Source: Desulfuromonas sp. SDB
GTDB lineage: Bacteria; SDB-A
NCBI GenBank assembly: GCA_001412365.1
Contig: LKUE01000348.1
Span: 1-6,375, forward strand
Direction of reading: 5' to 3'
Length of the DNA: 6,375 bases
Part shown: one piece after another, positions 4 through 6,375 of the stretch
Layout: the number at the start of each line of letters is the position of its first letter
Position numbering within the stretch: the stretch's first letter is position 1
The notes under the pieces: generated by a model
The model's input: the letters and a program-made list of their open reading frames with translations, nothing else
What the model was told of the DNA's origin: nothing
Databases searched by the model: none
Translations under genes and position numbers: made by a program

Positions 4-49
4 TACTGTGATTTCTATTTACCATCTTACTGGGATTTTTATTTACCAT
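4..49. repeat. Two 24-bp-period direct repeats, possible transposon end
   Basis: Positions 4-25 and 28-49 are 22-bp copies differing at two bases, with the shared core GATTTYTATTTACCAT, and the copies start 24 bp apart. The block is preceded by TGT at 2-4. IS21-family and Tn7-like elements typically begin with TG(T) followed by several 20-24 bp transposase-binding repeats, and the layout fits that pattern. Read inward from the TGT, the element would extend rightwards over the HerA gene, so this is either a remnant or the left end of an element carrying HerA. No transposase gene is visible. The repeat itself is directly seen; the mobile-element reading is inference. Confidence 0.55.
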
Positions 50-2255
50 TTCCAGGTGGGGGGTGTTTGGCACGGAATCGGGCGACAAAATCATTTCGAT
101 CATTGACCTTCATCAAGACTGGATTTTCACAGCTGGAGGCCTTCCCAAAAAAAACAACGTGCCTTTCTTCAAGGCTTGGTAGTACATGTGCATAATCAGT
201 GCCCAAATAATTTTCAAGAAAGGCCATGCCCGTGTCATCAAACGTGCGAAAAGCCAATACTGTGTTGCACTGATTTAATATTGTTTTGGTTACATTTGCA
301 GTTCTTTGGGAGATCAAAAGACAGCCTAAGCCATACTTGCGACCTTGCAATATTGCTCTAGCCGTTCCTGCTACGGCATGTTTATCCGAATCGACAGTAA
401 GGTTGTTAAACTCGGGAACTAGCGAATGGGCTTCTTCGAATACAAGACAAACATTTGCTGTATCGCGCATTTTATCTTGGGAGAGTGCTAAGCATGATTC
501 AGTAACCATACGCGTAATCTCAGCTGGTGTGGTTTCCCGGAAAGCTGCTACCTGAGCCCAATCATTTGGACCGGGTCCAATCTTCTTGTTGCGCAGGTCA
601 CCAGCCTGAATGGAGGCATTTATTTGGGCTGGATTATAGATTTTAAGCATTGACTCGCAGTTTTCATATAGGAAAGCAGCGAGATCCTCATAAATAGCTG
701 TTTTGAGATTTTCAAAGCTGCCTCCTTTAACCTTTGAATCTTCCACTTTATTACGATCTTTATTAGCAGCGAGTCGAATCTTTTCGAGGCACTTAGCCTC
801 ACCTTCAGAATCATAGAAAGGAGCAAGCTCTTGGGCATATTGATTGGTTAAATCAAGGCAGACTACCTTAACACCATCTGCAAACATGCGCTCGATAAGT
901 TCAATAGCGAGGAATGATTTCCCAACACCTAAAATTCCAAGAATTGCAGTGTTGTGAGTAACAAGCTCGTGGATATTCTTTATCCTGATCGGATACTTTG
1001 TAGAGGGAAGGCAACCTACTGCTGTCTCGTCTATTTCTTCAAGTGGACCTACGCTTTGAAAAACTGGTGAGTGCATTGCAGGGATCCATTTGACCAGTTT
1101 AAAACTTCCTTTATTGGAGTCCCAACGACCTATCTTACGGGCCTCGGCACGAGCGAAACCTCGCGTGTTTCGATGGAAGACTATTTCCTCACGAGTCAGT
1201 CCATCAGTAATCTGGTATAAAACTGGAGTCCCTTTGATTGATGCTTCCAAAACTGCACCTTCACTTACAGTGGTTTCTTTTATGACTTCAACGTATAGTT
1301 TATTTATAGATGTATTTTCAGCGACCAAACCCGCAAGCTTATCTGCCCTTTGGGCGTATGTTTCTTCGTCCAGAATCCTTTTAAGATCTCCATCGGGTAG
1401 AATTCTCGCAGCGCATCCCGGAGGAATGGTCTTTGCAAATAATTCTACCGTATTCTGCGCATGGATAGGGAGCTCAAGCAGCTTTGCCCGCAAAAGCATG
1501 CCGGAATCCCTTCCAAAATACCCTAGAACTTGTGAAAGCTGAGGTTTTGTCCCAATATCATTGATCAGAAGATAGTCGCCGAATTTTGAATTCTTAGCGG
1601 GTTGGCGTATCAAAACAATGCCTGGCTCATCAAAACCAGCAATCTCTCCAGCAATGCCTGACACCTCCCTACTTTTCCAGATAGCGCTAATTCTTTTTAA
1701 GAATACAATGAAGTGAGTTTCTGGACGAAGCAAGACTATAAAGATCAGTACAGATAGTATCGTGAAAACCTGCAATGCATTATCACGATGGTATAAACCA
1801 ACAGCACTAATAATTACTATACTGAAGAGTATTCTATCGTTCCCGAATTGGTCAGAAAACTCCTTAGCGATTGTACCAACTCGAAGTCCTGCTCCTTCCA
1901 TCCGAGATCGAAGCAACAAGGCACATGCTGATAAGATTATTACAAGAGTTAAGTAAACCAGAACAGCACCAGCTATGAATGATTCAGCACCTTTAAACGA
2001 AGGCCAATCAAACGCTAACCAGCATGCAACGAAGGCTGCAGCGGCTGAGGCAATGTGATTCGCAGGACGCTCGAAGTAAGGTGTAACGAGAAAGCTGCTT
2101 AAGAGCAGGCTAAGAACACCAGCTCCAAACCAAAGGCTGTTTTCGTCTCTAGTGGGTACCCAAGAGTTGAATGCTATTCGGTTCGCTACGAAAAGTAGCC
2201 CGATATAAATAATGAGGAAGAGGAGTCGCGTCTTGCCGCTTTCAATTGTTTTCAT
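39..2255 (-). CDS. Membrane-anchored HerA/DUF87-type ATPase
   Basis: This 738-residue protein has an N-terminal membrane part and a C-terminal motor ATPase. Hydrophobic segments lie near residues 10-28, 42-58, 66-82, 90-115, 142-155 and 160-177. Residues about 200-400 are a soluble region that could hold a HAS-barrel-like domain. The P-loop GILGVGKS is at 440-447, the Walker B-type strand VCLVFEEAH at 602-610 with two acidic residues, a LLISQR motif at 646-651, and the late LEERHVVFFG segment at 695-704. This order is typical of HerA/DUF87 and VirB4-like hexameric translocases; the P-loop has Val where Ser is common. Such ATPases move DNA or work with nucleases, and some act in phage defence, but no nuclease partner is visible here. 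The ATG at 2255 is preceded by AAGGA at 2263-2267 with a 7-nt gap. The stop codon lies inside a direct repeat, so the tail GNGK may be repeat-derived. The family is secure; the role is not. Confidence 0.87.
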   Translation of the reverse strand: MKTIESGKTRLLFLIIYIGLLFVANRIAFNSWVPTRDENSLWFGAGVLSLLLSSFLVTPYFERPANHIASAAAAFVACWLAFDWPSFKGAESFIAGAVLVYLTLVIILSACALLLRSRMEGAGLRVGTIAKEFSDQFGNDRILFSIVIISAVGLYHRDNALQVFTILSVLIFIVLLRPETHFIVFLKRISAIWKSREVSGIAGEIAGFDEPGIVLIRQPAKNSKFGDYLLINDIGTKPQLSQVLGYFGRDSGMLLRAKLLELPIHAQNTVELFAKTIPPGCAARILPDGDLKRILDEETYAQRADKLAGLVAENTSINKLYVEVIKETTVSEGAVLEASIKGTPVLYQITDGLTREEIVFHRNTRGFARAEARKIGRWDSNKGSFKLVKWIPAMHSPVFQSVGPLEEIDETAVGCLPSTKYPIRIKNIHELVTHNTAILGILGVGKSFLAIELIERMFADGVKVVCLDLTNQYAQELAPFYDSEGEAKCLEKIRLAANKDRNKVEDSKVKGGSFENLKTAIYEDLAAFLYENCESMLKIYNPAQINASIQAGDLRNKKIGPGPNDWAQVAAFRETTPAEITRMVTESCLALSQDKMRDTANVCLVFEEAHSLVPEFNNLTVDSDKHAVAGTARAILQGRKYGLGCLLISQRTANVTKTILNQCNTVLAFRTFDDTGMAFLENYLGTDYAHVLPSLEERHVVFFGKASSCENPVLMKVNDRNDFVARFRAKHPPPGNGK

Positions 2256-2700
2256 AACCTATTCCTTCAAAAGAAGCCGAACATTTATATTTTACTGTAT
2301 TATATCTAATACAAAGTGTATTGAACTATTACTTTAATGTCAAGATATATAATGTTAGTAAATTATGATATTAAGTCACATGGGTTGCTTTATGATTAAA
2401 CTCTCGATTTGATGTTTAGGTTTAACAACAATACACATCTTTAATATCAGAGTTACAGAGAAAACAATGGGGAAAGTGTCTTTTTTCAGAAAATTATTAT
2501 AGCAGTTAATTCCAAAGGATTTTATTTTATCCCCTTAGCTTCCGATTAATAGCATTTTGATCTTTGCCCAGTGGAGTATCAGATTGAAAGTTAAACGAAG
2601 TATTAATGATATTTATAATTATTCTTCGGTATTTAGTAAATACATGGTGTCCCTAATGGCTAATACTCCTCATAATCAGTATTTTCTAGTTCATGCAGTT
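2256..2700. other. Gene-poor spacer between HerA and ORF6N genes
   Basis: This AT-rich stretch of about 445 bases has no convincing gene. It holds the HerA ribosome binding site and promoter at its left end. Its right part could fold: GGAGTAT (2573-2579) pairs with ATACTCC (2663-2669), enclosing CGAAG (2596-2600) with CTTCG (2624-2628). It may contain the lost or diverged second half of an attC whose R'' box is at 2701-2708. A 68-codon plus-strand reading frame at 2557-2763 runs into the ORF6N gene on the other strand and looks like chance. Nothing recognisable is seen at about 2400-2560. Confidence 0.5.
2299..2343 (-). promoter_or_regulatory. Sigma70-type promoter of the HerA gene
   Basis: On the minus strand a perfect TTGACA (2338-2343) is followed after 17 bp by TACACT (2315-2320), a 4/6 match to the -10 box. 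A perfect TATAAT (2299-2304) lies just downstream and could serve as an alternative -10, though with a poor -35. Transcription would start about 45-55 bases before the HerA ATG. This gives HerA its own promoter instead of dependence on read-through from the genes to its right. Confidence 0.6.
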
Positions 2701-2708
2701 GTTGAGGT
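2701..2708 (-). other. attC R'' box (half site) after ORF6N
   Basis: The minus strand reads ACCTCAAC here, the exact reverse complement of plus GTTGAGGT. It matches perfectly the first bases (TTGAGGT) of the unit that starts at 3303 on the minus strand, as expected for the R'' box of the same integron cassette. It overlaps the ORF6N stop codon by one base. No clear partner arm with a GTT box was found within the usual attC length (about 55-150 bases), so the site is incomplete, diverged or misread. Confidence 0.5.
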
Positions 2709-3235
2709 CAATCATTATAAAAGCCGATCCGTCTCTTCTTTGGTGGTGGTTTCGGATTCATAAGCTGTTTGATCGCCTTTGCTAGTACAAGAATCTGTTT
2801 GTTATGATCACCCAGCTTTTTTTCCAGTTGGGATATTTTTTGAGCTAGTTCCTTATGCCCGGATACTACTTCGCGAAGCTGAACGAAAGCACGTACGATG
2901 AATACGCTAACCTCAATTGCTCTCGGTGAATTCAATACGCTAGCCGCCATTATTGCCCCATGCTCAGTGAATTCATGTGGATTTACATGGGAGAATTTCA
3001 GATTTTCGAGGTGGTCACAATTTGTTATCACCTCTTGTTTCTCTTCCTTTGTAAGGCGGAACATGAAATCCGGTGGGAATCGATCAGCATTTCGACGAAT
3101 AGCTTGATTGAGGGACTTGGTTGTAACTCCGTATGCTTCTGCTAGGTCAGCATCTATGATGATCTTCTCGCCTCGGATTAGCAGAATGCGCTGCTGAATC
3201 TGACCTACTCTGACCACTGCTTCTGATTTCTTCAT
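2708..3235 (-). CDS. ORF6N-domain DNA-binding protein
   Basis: This 175-residue protein has an ORF6N domain (the phage KilA-N/antirepressor-related group) over residues about 12-110. Visible landmarks are LLIRGEKIIIDADLAEAYGV (18-37), where a DLAEAYGVTTKSLNQAIRRN stretch at 30-49 looks helix-turn-helix-like, then RFPPDFMFRLT (52-61) and FTEHGAIMAASVL (89-101). Residues about 118-160 form a heptad-rich coiled coil, followed by a basic proline-rich tail, PKPPPKKRRIGF. The domain is common in phages and mobile elements and probably binds DNA as an oligomer; the target is unknown. AGGGG at 3241-3245 lies 5 nt before the ATG at 3235. A 7-bp inverted repeat 21-45 bp upstream could be its own operator. 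The gene fills a unit bounded by matching TTGAGGT/ACCTCAA ends (2701-3303), so it is probably an integron cassette of about 600 bp. Confidence 0.85.
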   Translation of the reverse strand: MKKSEAVVRVGQIQQRILLIRGEKIIIDADLAEAYGVTTKSLNQAIRRNADRFPPDFMFRLTKEEKQEVITNCDHLENLKFSHVNPHEFTEHGAIMAASVLNSPRAIEVSVFIVRAFVQLREVVSGHKELAQKISQLEKKLGDHNKQILVLAKAIKQLMNPKPPPKKRRIGFYND

Positions 3236-3255
3236 CGCAACCCCTAGTTCAACTG

Positions 3256-3280
3256 AGGTGGTGGCAATCTGTGACCACCT
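3256..3280. promoter_or_regulatory. Inverted repeat upstream of ORF6N, possible operator
   Basis: AGGTGGT (3256-3262) and ACCACCT (3274-3280) are perfect 7-bp inverted arms with an 11-bp spacer. The element lies between the cassette boundary at 3303 and the ORF6N start codon, 21-45 bp upstream of the start. It could be a dimer binding site for autoregulation by the ORF6N protein, or a hairpin in its leader RNA. The repeat is seen; the role is inference. Confidence 0.45.
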
Positions 3281-3297
3281 TGTTATTCAAAATCAAA

Positions 3298-3386
3298 CCT
3301 CAACGATCTCTTATGCCGCCCGGGAAGTAACGCAAGCAGGATAATCAAGCCCCGTGTACTGGATCAGCATGAAGAATTTGTTATGT
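3298..3386 (-). other. attC: attC recombination site (small-gene cassette)
   Basis: This 89-bp site reads, on the minus strand, from ACATAAC (R'', 3386-3380) to GTTGAGG (R', 3304-3298). TCTTATGC (3309-3316) pairs with GCATGAAGA (3367-3375), leaving a single unpaired G at 3371. Inside that, AGTAACG (3326-3332) pairs with CGTGTACT (3353-3360), leaving G3356 unpaired. Unpaired single bases on the R''-side arm, G or T on the bottom strand, are the feature by which integron integrases recognise folded attC. Crossover would fall between 3304 and 3303. The CATAAC box also carries the TAA stop of the restored frame of the adjoining gene. Confidence 0.8.
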
Positions 3387-3869
3387 GATATTTCTGTTTT
3401 CACTTATAAACTTAAATTTTTGAATAATATTGTCTTCAGATCCATTTATGATTCTTTTAAAACACCAGTTGACCGGAAAAAACATTCTTTTTCATTTTTA
3501 TAAAAAGGAAAAGAAATTTTTCCAAAAGTGGGATGATTTTTTCTCCAAAATCCAAAGCCTTTTGATCTTTTAAATACTTCTCCTAAATATGCGGCATACA
3601 TTATTGTTAACCCGTAAAAACCTTTATCGTCTTTTGAGATTAAATATTGTTCATGAATTTTATTCAATATTTCCTCAATCTTTTCAATTGATGATTCAGA
3701 ATAATCAAGTTCTATTTGGTAGCTTTGTTTTGCTGTAGTAACTGCAACATTTGCTGCATTTTTCATCATGGTATCTGGCTTGTTTATCTTAATGAATTGA
3801 ATGATGATGAAAATGATAACGGCAAAAAGAAAAAAATTAGAATAAAACCGACCATTTGTTCTTTCTCAT
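3381..3869 (-). pseudogene. Frameshifted small membrane-anchored protein gene
   Basis: The longest open stretch (3446-3769) gives 107 residues starting MMKNAANVAV and ending FFRSTGVLKES, but both ends look wrong. Near the A6 tract at 3477-3482 (T6 in the coding strand), one extra T would turn the tail into FFPVNWCFKRIINGSEDN and run to a TAA at 3381, inside the attC R'' box. Upstream, the frame continues without a stop through AVIIFIIIQFIKINKPDT, a transmembrane helix with no start codon. An ATG at 3869, 2 nt inside the cassette start, opens MRKNKWSVLF and stops at 3837; a 1-nt change would join it to that helix. The restored product is about 162 residues: short cytoplasmic start, one membrane anchor, soluble domain with YAAYLGEVFKR and a GW/NW...KRIINGSEDN tail. 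The pattern recalls small hypothetical proteins of this layout; no function is claimed. Both lesions touch T-runs, so sequencing error is possible. Confidence 0.65.
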
Positions 3870-3926
3870 AACGCTCCGACTCACGGGTGGCTGCCTTTCG
3901 CCATCTCTTGCAGCCGGATGTTATAT
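3866..3926 (-). other. attC: attC recombination site (DUF3800 cassette)
   Basis: This short site (61 bp) reads on the minus strand from ATATAAC (R'', 3926-3920) to GTTATGA (R', 3872-3866). GGCTGC (3889-3894) pairs with GCAGCC (3910-3915), and TCC (3875-3877) pairs with GGA (3916-3918); the R'-side arm carries about 11 extra bases, an unusually asymmetric fold. The R'' box, extended to CATATAAC, is the exact complement of the TTATATG with which the DUF3800 unit starts at 4865. Crossover would fall between 3872 and 3871, two bases before the ATG of the next gene. Confidence 0.72.
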
Positions 3927-3963
3927 GTTTGGTTTTATTTAAGAAATAGCCTCAAATATGCTC

Positions 3964-3992
3964 TTGACATTCAGCTAATTATGAAATAGTAT
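3964..3992 (+). promoter_or_regulatory. Promoter of the plus-strand small RNA
   Basis: A perfect -35 box TTGACA (3964-3969) is followed after exactly 17 bp by TAGTAT (3987-3992), a 4/6 match to TATAAT. The predicted start is near 3999, just before the first hairpin. It points towards the 3' end of DUF3800, opposite to every protein gene in the window. Confidence 0.65.
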
Positions 3993-3998
3993 ACGTTC

Positions 3999-4057
3999 AA
4001 TCCACTTAAGTGGAGGTGGATGGCGATAGCCATCGAGGCCCTTTGGGCCTTTTTTTT
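3999..4057 (+). ncRNA. Structured small RNA, candidate DUF3800-associated RNA
   Basis: The transcript of about 59 nt contains three consecutive hairpins and no open reading frame. Hairpin 1 is the 14-bp palindrome at 4001-4014 (TCCAC, TTAA loop, GTGGA). Hairpin 2 is GATGGC (4019-4024), loop GATA, GCCATC (4029-4034). Hairpin 3 is the terminator at 4036-4050, followed by eight T. A consensus -35 promoter sits directly upstream. The RNA ends 2 nt from the DUF3800 stop codon, in convergent orientation and inside the same cassette. Comparative genomics has described several DUF3800 RNA motifs, structured RNAs found beside DUF3800 genes in either orientation; membership of one of those classes is inference. 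It might bind the protein or act as an antisense RNA. Confidence 0.7.
4036..4057 (+). terminator. Rho-independent terminator of the small RNA
   Basis: The stem AGGCCC (4036-4041), loop TTT and GGGCCT (4045-4050) form a GC-rich hairpin; a run of eight T (4050-4057) starts at the last stem base. The T-run is on the plus strand only, so it ends the plus-strand RNA and not the DUF3800 message arriving from the other side. Confidence 0.85.
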
Positions 4058-4059
4058 AC

Positions 4060-4830
4060 CTAAATGAACTTCTTCCCGAAAATTCTGCCCCCATGTTGAT
4101 AATATTTCCTTTGAAGGATCTCGATTATTTTCTTACCAAATGGTGGAAGAGGGCGATCGAGCAGATGGTTTTCAGCCAAGATCTCGTTTCGGCTTGGGTG
4201 CGCAATAAGATCAGCTAGTTGGAGTCCAGAAATATTATTCGCTTTCGGCTTGACCTTTAGTTGTTTGCTAGTGAAAACAACATGAAATCTCTCAGGATTC
4301 ATATACTCAGTGCCTTCGTTCCATAGTCTATAAAATGATTTCTTCAACCTCATGTCCTCTTTCCCACCTCTTGATTCTGCCATCACGTCGCCCTTTGTTT
4401 CCTTCTGTTCCAAAAAGAATGTAAACCTTTCAAGCAGAAGGGCAAGGCAATAATGATATGGATCATATCTCCATATCTGATAGGTATCTTTGTGCGATTT
4501 TTTATCCAGGCAAACCGATATCACAGTGTATTCCCAACTGTTCAAAAAGCTTAATAAATCTGTGTCGAATTTTGATCTTATTTCTGAGTCACGAAGAGTT
4601 TTAAATGGACGTTTCGCATTCAGCAGTTCTTTTCTGTGGAAAATGACGGGATTGTCGGGATGAGAATCGAAGTAGTCCGATTTCAACTTCTCCATCTGAG
4701 GATGCAAGATACAGCTGACGTAATTCAAGTCTAAAATAACTCCAGTGAGACTCAAAAACCTATGAAGAGGATTCTCCGAGCTAGCAAGGTCAGAATTCCC
4801 TACTTCATCAACATACATTCGGTATTTCAT
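4060..4830 (-). CDS. DUF3800 family protein (RNase H-like fold)
   Basis: This 256-residue protein opens with the family hallmark MYVDEVGN (5-12), with acidic D8 and E9. Next come VIFHRKELL (62-70, H65 and E68), a conserved-type CLDKK (107-111), the helix YHYCLALLLERFTFFLE (126-142), AESRGGKED near 151-159, and the C-terminal signature GLQLADLIAHP (202-212, with D207). The spread of acidic residues suggests a metal-dependent RNase H-like nuclease, but activity is not established for the family. ATG at 4830 is preferred over TTG at 4836: GTGAG lies 8 nt before the ATG but only 2 nt before the TTG. It starts 35 bp inside the cassette boundary at 4865 and shares the cassette with the plus-strand small RNA, which ends 2 nt from its stop. 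The family call is firm; the biochemical role is open. Confidence 0.87.
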   Translation of the reverse strand: MKYRMYVDEVGNSDLASSENPLHRFLSLTGVILDLNYVSCILHPQMEKLKSDYFDSHPDNPVIFHRKELLNAKRPFKTLRDSEIRSKFDTDLLSFLNSWEYTVISVCLDKKSHKDTYQIWRYDPYHYCLALLLERFTFFLEQKETKGDVMAESRGGKEDMRLKKSFYRLWNEGTEYMNPERFHVVFTSKQLKVKPKANNISGLQLADLIAHPSRNEILAENHLLDRPLPPFGKKIIEILQRKYYQHGGRIFGKKFI

Positions 4831-4859
4831 TTTCAAATCTCACTTAAAGGGATGGAGAC

Positions 4860-4982
4860 ATATAACGATTAAATCAGTGGTTGAAAACATCATGGAACTC
4901 TAAAGAATACAAGTGATTCCAGATCACTTTCCGACTTGAAAAAAAGTAGCTGTTTTCAATCCACTGCATTTTTGTGTTAGGT
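4860..4982 (-). other. attC: attC recombination site (after type ISP gene)
   Basis: This long site (123 bp) reads on the minus strand from ACCTAAC (R'', 4982-4976, a full match to RYYYAAC) to GTTATAT (R', 4866-4860). CAGTGGTTGAAAACA (4875-4889) pairs with TGTTTTCAATCCACTG (4951-4966) over 15 bp, leaving one unpaired T at 4960 on the R''-side arm, as IntI-recognised attC bottom strands have. The loop carries its own hairpin, AAGTGAT (4910-4916) with ATCACTT (4922-4928). It begins 8 bp after the type ISP stop codon. Crossover would fall between 4866 and 4865. Confidence 0.82.
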
Positions 4983-4990
4983 GTAGAATT

Positions 4991-6375
4991 TTATATTTCA
5001 ATTAAATTATCCAATACTTCATCATATAAATCATCAACCTTTTTTTGTTCTTCATAAGTAAGTCTAATGGCAGTACCAATTTTGCAATATTCAATAGTGT
5101 CGTTTAATCCAAGTTCCTTGTCTTTGAAATATTTTATCCAATGTTGCATAGGTTTATTTTTACCTACTCCCCATTCCCATATTTCTTTCGTGATACCAGA
5201 AAAATATTGTGTTATATTTATAAAGAGTTGTTTATCATTTTCTTTGAATTGTATATTACTTACTTTGTTTGTTCCTGTTCCTTTAAATTTTACAAGGGGA
5301 TTTGAAAGTAACTTTGATGTCAGCAAATGTAACTCCGTCATAGTTTTACCGATTTCAGCTATTTTGTTAAATGTTATTAAATCTTTTGTAAAAGGTATTT
5401 TGGGATAATTTATTTTTAAAAGTTCAGGAAATGCTTTACGATAATTATTACTGTATAAAATAGCATAGATATAAAATAATATGCTCTCAGTCAAATTTTC
5501 TTCGCTGTAATATTTTTGGAGCATTAGCTCAAATTCAGGTCTGATATTACTTTTTTTACCTGTTCCAAATAAATCGTCATCTTCATCATAAATCCATAGG
5601 GGAAACACATAAGATTGACCACCAAGAAAATTTTTATCGACCATATATTTTGAGCAGAAACAATGGTTATATATTTTATCAATATGTCTTTTTTTAAGAA
5701 CTAATGATATATTTTCACCAAGATATAAATTTTTCATCACCTTTTTTCTATCTCTATCAACAAACAGACTATCATAGTAAATAAATTTATTGTCGAATGG
5801 TTTGTGTGAAAAAGGCTTTATTCGTTCTTCCTCAACCTTTTTAAATTTTGACTTAACTTTACGTACATCAAAATCAGATCCATCATCTATTTGAAAAGTC
5901 TCTTTTATTAATTCAATCGGTAAAGTTAAACTCATAAATTGGTTGAAACGAGCTTTTAATCCTTTTTCTGTTTTATCTAACACAAAATGATCCCTACCAG
6001 AAGTAACACCGCTCGATTTTTGCATAAATATTTCATCAACAGCGATAAACGAATTGTATAATTCTGGATTACTGAAGTTTTTCTTTTCAAAGAAAAAATA
6101 TGTTTCATCGATAGAAAGTTGTTCCCACTGTGTATTTGAAATACAGTGTTTATCTAAAAAATCATATTTAAAGTCACGTTCACCATACAATTCATGGAAA
6201 AACAGTTTCCCATATTTCTTATTCTTTTTATTTCCATTTTTTATTAATAATAAAATCGCAACACCTACTCGTATATCAAATACATTTTGATCATTACTAC
6301 CTTCGGGTGTTTTTTCATAAAGCTTGCCATGAAGATTGTACACATAAACATTATCAAAAAATTCTAATATCTTTT
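4991..6375 (-). CDS. Type ISP restriction-modification enzyme, C-terminal part
   Basis: The frame stays open to the window edge, so only the last 460 residues are seen. The apparent GTG start at 6343 is an internal Val in VYVYNLHGKLYEK. Family landmarks are the methyltransferase-end block YNLHGKLYEKTPEGSNDQNV with FDIRVGVAILLL, then IKPFSHKPFDNKFIYYDSLF, DRDRKKVMKNL, GGQSYVFPLWIYDEDDD, FYIYAILYSNNYRKAFPELL, INYPKIPF, LHLLTSKL and ITQYFSGITKEIWEW. These match the end of the adenine-methyltransferase domain plus the C-terminal target-recognition domain of type ISP (LlaBIII/LlaGI-like) enzymes. Full enzymes add an N-terminal nuclease, helicase and the NPPY methylase motif, which would lie to the right; it could also be a stand-alone methyltransferase. 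The gene is strikingly AT-rich compared with its neighbours and is followed after 8 bp by an attC. Confidence 0.88.
   Translation of the reverse strand, partial: KILEFFDNVYVYNLHGKLYEKTPEGSNDQNVFDIRVGVAILLLIKNGNKKNKKYGKLFFHELYGERDFKYDFLDKHCISNTQWEQLSIDETYFFFEKKNFSNPELYNSFIAVDEIFMQKSSGVTSGRDHFVLDKTEKGLKARFNQFMSLTLPIELIKETFQIDDGSDFDVRKVKSKFKKVEEERIKPFSHKPFDNKFIYYDSLFVDRDRKKVMKNLYLGENISLVLKKRHIDKIYNHCFCSKYMVDKNFLGGQSYVFPLWIYDEDDDLFGTGKKSNIRPEFELMLQKYYSEENLTESILFYIYAILYSNNYRKAFPELLKINYPKIPFTKDLITFNKIAEIGKTMTELHLLTSKLLSNPLVKFKGTGTNKVSNIQFKENDKQLFINITQYFSGITKEIWEWGVGKNKPMQHWIKYFKDKELGLNDTIEYCKIGTAIRLTYEEQKKVDDLYDEVLDNLIEI

Follow-up and report, generated by a model that had tools for sequence, protein, structure and literature searches.

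A small structured RNA gene convergent with a DUF3800 gene in an integron-type cassette is probably the partner of a predicted RNase HII-like nuclease

Structured RNA motifs associated with DUF3800 genes were reportedly described by Weinberg et al. in 2017, and are said to include the Rfam families RF02969 (DUF3800-I) and RF02968 (DUF3800-IX). Years of comparative genomics have left these RNAs without a function, and DUF3800 nucleases are unexplained accessories of CRISPR loci. In the convergent type I systems of Bacillus, of the BsrG/SR4 kind, the RNA gene runs toward the 3' end of the gene for the protein. A small RNA within an integron cassette has a precedent in sRNA-Xcc1, for which we know of no DUF3800 partner. 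DUF3800 proteins are RNase H-fold nucleases, found as accessories in CRISPR types V-A2 and VI-F and earlier tied to non-coding RNAs (PMC10910872, PMC12669027). AbiF is a HEPN protein preceded, within one transcription unit, by its RNA, an antitoxin that works in trans and binds the protein directly (PMC12373285). Known type III antitoxins share a transcript with the toxin that follows them and are usually tandem repeats, and phages can carry copies of the antitoxin RNA, called pseudo-ToxI (PMC5086642).

The window analyzed here is an entire contig (G000:C348, 6375 bp) from a draft genome of 3.1 Mb, whose phylum has only four genomes in the collection. Its features are the following:

39-2255, minus strand: HerA-like ATPase gene
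2708-3235, minus strand: ORF6N/PDC-S05 protein gene
3446-3769, minus strand: 107-aa orphan gene
3864-3928, minus strand: attC-like site closing the DUF3800/RNA cassette (R and L boxes by eye, single-strand fold)
3872-4865, minus strand: integron-type gene cassette with the DUF3800 gene and the small RNA (994 bp, R' to R')
3964-3992, plus strand: sigma-70-type promoter of the small RNA, TTGACA-17-TAGTAT (position conserved in 78 homologues)
3999-4057, plus strand: small RNA gene of about 59 nt, whose transcript is predicted to begin with the first A of AAUCC
4001-4014, plus strand: hairpin 1, UCCAC-UUAA-GUGGA (covariation in the inner pairs; UCC/GGA invariant because the search pattern demanded it)
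4015-4018, plus strand: conserved single-stranded linker GGUG
4019-4034, plus strand: hairpin 2, GAUGGC-GAUA-GCCAUC (fold and covariation)
4036-4057, plus strand: hairpin 3, an intrinsic terminator, AGGCCC-UUU-GGGCCU followed by a U-run (covariation at each of the four inner pairs of the stem)
4060-4830, minus strand: DUF3800 gene, 256 aa, ATG at 4830 and TAG at 4062-4060 (Pfam, alignment of 39 homologues, AlphaFold)
4858-4984, minus strand: attC-like site that belongs to the adjacent cassette with the restriction-methylase fragment and marks the 5' boundary of the DUF3800 cassette
4991-6373, minus strand: C-terminal part of a type ISP restriction-methylase

Several neighbours look defence-like (the HerA ATPase and ORF6N/PDC-S05 genes within 39-3235, the type ISP C-terminal part at 4991-6373).

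Like the DUF3800-associated motifs, the locus has a structured RNA adjoining a DUF3800 gene. The window RNA has about 58 positions, whereas the DUF3800-I model has 115, and none of the models in Rfam 15 gave a match, either in the window or in its homologues. The expectation that the RNA would belong to a curated Rfam DUF3800 family was not borne out, since these families stayed silent even when the E limit was relaxed to 5-10. Neither the window RNA, at the gathering threshold or at E up to 10, nor its homologues found a relevant match. The window RNA could be one of the published DUF3800 motifs missing from Rfam. As in the AbiF/ncRNA system (RCd22 / AbiFr), a nuclease is accompanied by a small structured RNA with its own promoter and terminator, on phages and other mobile elements; AbiF differs in its HEPN domain and upstream, co-transcribed RNA, where we find a predicted RNase HII-like fold and a convergent RNA. 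Type III ToxIN is also an RNA-protein pair, but one with another protein fold and co-operonic tandem repeats, whereas here a single convergent RNA has its own promoter. The convergent layout is that of BsrG/SR4, where the protein is a small membrane peptide toxin and the RNA is not known to be conserved across phyla, in contrast to the 256-aa RNase H-fold protein of this locus. Finally, the small RNA lies within an integron cassette, like sRNA-Xcc1; the integron sRNA model RF02221 has no match in the window.

The promoter of the small RNA has TTGACA at 3964-3969, a 17-nt spacer and TAGTAT at 3987-3992 on the plus strand (10/12 consensus matches), and the terminator consists of a stem at 4036-4050 and a T-run at 4051-4057. 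The segment 3995-4057 folds into three hairpins at -28.4 kcal/mol (z -4.58), which none of 200 shuffles equalled, and the RNA gene (3999-4057) scores 69.2 bits against the covariance model. The original prediction of a minus-strand DUF3800 gene facing a plus-strand RNA gene with a consensus -35 promoter, three hairpins and a terminator ending 2 nt before the DUF3800 stop codon therefore agrees with what we found: TTGACA is in place, the hairpins fold and covary, and the T-run ends at 4057, next to a stop codon at 4062-4060. The promoter of the window alone proves nothing, as the region 3240-5050 holds 3 promoter-like sites against 5.7 expected in shuffles. It becomes convincing because homologues repeat the pyrimidine at -1, the A at +1 and the placement of the -10 box, which occupies -12 to -7 in 64 of the 78. 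Given this constant promoter distance, we predict a separate transcript of 55-60 nt that begins with AAUCC.

Close relatives of the DUF3800 gene in other genomes have the same RNA beside them, including its hairpins. A pattern scan gave 85 loci from GTDB genome contigs and 3 from viral contigs and, together with the covariance model, yielded about 80 relatives judged real by their promoter and terminator; four pattern matches (L043, L051, L099, L105) were judged to be chance. Their consensus is AAUCC-hairpin-GGAGGUGGAUGG-loop-CCAUC-GGGCCC-loop-GGGCC-UUUU. Since the search pattern set the core letters, the invariance of the core is partly due to selection, and the evidence for a family rests on what the pattern left free, namely the promoter, the terminator and the inner pairs of the stems. 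Among 53 distinct sequences, 96.9% of the stem cells are paired, and the covariation expected of true stems is present: we counted 62 cells with double-sided changes against 18.5 in shuffles, none of 500 shuffles being as high, and slid controls were far lower. Judged from these alignments, the small RNA is a structurally conserved RNA gene family absent from Rfam 15. Its variable positions all fall within stems or short loops, so that it lacks the variable unpaired guide segment of an OMEGA-like RNA-guided nuclease. A peptide gene starting at the conserved AUG in GGAUGG was considered and rejected, as the frame lengths scatter between 2 and 202 codons and the loop length is not kept modulo 3. 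An RNA subtype ending in ...AGCGUG instead of AUCG occurs solo in three genomes (L126, L129, L133) and adjoins a DUF3800 gene in L019. A scan of 145 genomes with the DUF3800-I model matched nothing at all and is uninformative.

The association between the RNA and the protein is very regular. A DUF3800 protein is present at 63 of the 89 RNA loci (43 of them full length). Without exception (63/63) its gene lies on the strand opposite the RNA and points its 3' end at the RNA terminator, and in nearly all loci the gene ends 19-50 nt past hairpin 2. The carriers of full-length genes span at least 17 phylum-level groups. When 386 genomes were searched starting from the protein, members of the subfamily (more than 240 bits, plus one broken copy) were found in 8 genomes, all with the RNA. 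The subfamily genes of genome G410 and of the viral contig L210 also have it, the latter as a weak match that lies exactly behind the viral DUF3800 gene and scores 20 bits, in a range (below about 27 bits) where matches of the covariance model are mostly chance. Altogether, the convergent RNA accompanies 10 of 10 subfamily proteins (9 genomes and one viral contig, query included), in a small sample made mostly of incomplete metagenome bins, and this particular RNA is found beside none of 9 more distant DUF3800 genes. A search of viral sequences with the single protein query gave no match. More generally, a convergent promoter plus terminator was found at 39 of 65 DUF3800 gene ends, many from loci selected by their RNA, and at 0 of 355 ends of other genes; among protein-first loci, two of which entered twice, the counts were 12/28 versus 2/75 (p 1e-6). 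These observations support the view that the RNA and the DUF3800 protein are evolutionarily a pair. The suggestion that they work together is thus upheld as regards the evolutionary pair, the shared cassette and the conserved RNA; its variant of an RNA-guided nuclease is not, given the short loops and the missing guide segment.

The protein matches PF12686 with E 2.8e-12 (48 bits for a cut-off of 21), and its homologues start at the same ATG (4830). An AlphaFold model built on 39 aligned homologues has a pLDDT of 94, and its best matches among solved structures are RNases HII/H2 (VIA Z of 10.0 to 1eke and 9.1 to 3puf), with lower scores for Piwi and RNase HI (Z of 6-8); the Foldseek E value is only 1.3e-3. 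Residues D10, E11, D111 and D209 are invariant in the 39 homologues. The N-terminal DExG motif resembles the DEAGRG of RNase HII. A sequence-only search of the PDB with the protein revealed no relative, and Pfam finds DUF3800 only, with no HEPN (Abi_2) domain. The protein is therefore a predicted nuclease with an RNase HII-like fold, bearing in mind that likeness in fold is not activity. By eye, no conserved promoter or ribosome site was seen upstream of the gene among homologous loci.

The pair is carried by what appears to be a mobile cassette. The unit of about 994 bp (3872-4865) proposed to hold both genes coincides exactly with the R'-to-R' boundaries of the two attC-like sites, whose bottom strands fold so that the R and L boxes pair and extrahelical bases protrude. 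The single-strand fold has a z of -3.5 at 4858-4984 and of -1.5 at 3864-3928, the latter being weak alone. An integron integrase is encoded elsewhere in the genome (TIGR02249, 396 bits), on a separate contig whose join to the cassette array is not assembled. In the nearest relative (L045, Desulfobacterales), the protein is 81% identical and the layout looks alike by eye, with CATATAAC immediately upstream of the RNA promoter and GTTATATG immediately before the gene. Because the sequence between and around these boxes differs from that of the window, the pair seems to be a cassette of two integrons that are unrelated to each other. The second site of L045 has a strong fold, yet is not a textbook attC. 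A nucleotide search of plasmids with the cassette gave no match, and among homologous loci we found no conserved termini indicative of transposon ends, either upstream of the RNA or of the DUF3800 gene.

The RNA is also found without an intact protein. We searched 15 genomes with solo RNAs (50-83 bits), of which 14 lack any subfamily DUF3800 and one has only fragments. Six other loci keep the RNA beside internally deleted or truncated genes (L022/L077, L040, L065, L088, L038, L053), and two genomes hold both an intact and a deleted copy. The mean promoter score, of 12, was 8.6 for solo RNAs, 9.6 for intact loci and 5.0 for random positions, and the terminators of solo RNAs are slightly eroded (21.4 versus 25.0). 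Some solo RNAs may be relics. The solo copies of Desulfomonile have only the promoter, the RNA and a C-terminal remnant in common. The recurrent internal deletions (L022/L077, L040, L065) spare the RNA and both gene ends (approximately aa 1-50/67 and 195/206-255) and resemble non-autonomous element derivatives; in L040 the deleted gene retains an open frame of 117 aa. On two viral contigs (L032/L033), an RNA of the window family without a DUF3800 gene nearby adjoins a HigA-like antitoxin gene.

Since the enzyme was found with an RNA in every case checked, the RNA is also found alone, and the pair occurs in distant bacteria, the RNA is probably the partner of the enzyme, and most likely its antidote. 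We tentatively propose, as a quite plausible reading, a two-gene module in which a small RNA binds and inactivates an RNase HII-fold nuclease, as RNA antitoxins do with their toxins. This RNA would be made constantly from its own strong promoter, its transcription stopping at the terminator just short of the 3' end of the nuclease gene. It would be in excess over the nuclease, for which we recognise neither a strong promoter nor a conserved ribosome site, and would bind it and keep it inactive. Loss or titration of the RNA, upon stress, phage infection or loss of the element, would then free the nuclease. In this scheme we infer expression, direct RNA-protein binding, inhibition, toxicity and a role in phage defence. 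Antitoxins can persist alone, and toxins as a rule do not. That the RNA occurs as an orphan, and that no subfamily protein was seen without it, thus favours an antidote or inhibitor, as do the stronger promoter of the RNA, its lack of a guide segment and the precedent of AbiF and its RNA. The covarying hairpins, the RNase HII-like fold with its invariant acidic residues, the missing preference for the mRNA start and the convergent RNAs of other sequence at distant DUF3800 genes also speak for this reading. By analogy, the single and convergent RNA argues against an antidote, type III antitoxins being co-transcribed tandem repeats.

Instead of being inhibited, the nuclease might need the RNA as an activating cofactor or as a scaffold, the two forming a ribonucleoprotein effector. 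This fits the regular pairing across the subfamily, the RNase H fold and the place of DUF3800 proteins as accessory nucleases in CRISPR V-A2 and VI-F (PMC10910872, PMC12669027), but we consider it unlikely, as the RNA persists with its promoter and fold in genomes without the protein and has no variable guide segment. We find it less probable still that the RNA is a cis antisense regulator, with read-through of the mRNA giving a duplex of about 60 bp and mRNA decay, as in the convergent type I systems of Bacillus. The fixed tail-to-tail geometry is what one would expect of it; yet such a regulator needs no conserved sequence or structure, and both are kept across phyla, the terminator stops short of the coding region, and the RNA pairs no better with the start region of its cognate mRNA than with non-cognate ones. 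An independent trans-acting sRNA merely linked to DUF3800 could account for the solo copies and for the linker GGAGGUG, complementary to the 3' end of 16S rRNA; this seems improbable considering that the RNA is adjacent, in one orientation, in 10/10 subfamily proteins, and that variants break the Shine-Dalgarno match (GGAGUUG in L129). That the hairpins are only a terminator and a decayed attC or repeat without RNA product is hardly credible, for although bidirectional terminators are common at gene ends and the promoter scan of the window alone is not above chance, it leaves unexplained the covariation, the fixed start site and the excess of convergent promoters with terminators at DUF3800 ends (39/65 versus 0/355, and 12/28 versus 2/75 protein-first).

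If the RNA does inactivate the nuclease, the system makes a clear prediction, namely that the protein is harmful alone and harmless with the RNA. It is also compact (256 aa and 59 nt), with RNA ends that are predicted exactly. If this is true, it would represent an RNase HII-fold branch of RNA-controlled toxins, parallel to the HEPN branch of AbiF, the presumed source of Cas13.

At the equivalent tail-to-tail position, most of the more distant DUF3800 genes are faced by another RNA (about 17 of 20 by eye). These pairs occur in several phyla, on rhizobial, Methylorubrum, Paraburkholderia and Acinetobacter plasmids, and in Pseudomonas and Paracoccus phages. This second RNA family (L157, L158, L160, L161, L162, L002, L212-L217, L219) often has the core GGAYUGGG..CCCGGUCGGC followed by a terminator, and has no match in Rfam. 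DUF3800-associated RNAs are already known as a kind; the tail-to-tail rule and the orphan RNAs are the features with the best chance of being new. It is possible, if somewhat doubtful, that DUF3800 proteins form a large class, not recognised before, of toxins or abortive-infection nucleases with an RNase HII fold, every subfamily having its own tail-to-tail restraining RNA, the modules crossing phyla in integron cassettes, plasmids and phages, and the orphan RNAs of phages serving as antidotes.

A scan of viral contigs with the pattern of the second core gave 118 loci, of which 80 were fetched, and 23 of these 80 converge on a DUF3800 gene. Among the others, roughly 20-25 have the look of structured orphan RNAs, some of them adjoining phage tRNA genes, and the remainder look like chance. 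The orphan viral RNAs (among L221-L300, e.g., L222, L241, L268, L273, L293) have the core GAYYGGG..CCCGGUC with a 3-nt bulge and, like the second family, do not match Rfam; it is possible that they are phage copies or decoys. The source genome of the window itself has a second DUF3800 gene on another contig (C201, locus L002), with apparently two tandem small RNA genes behind it.
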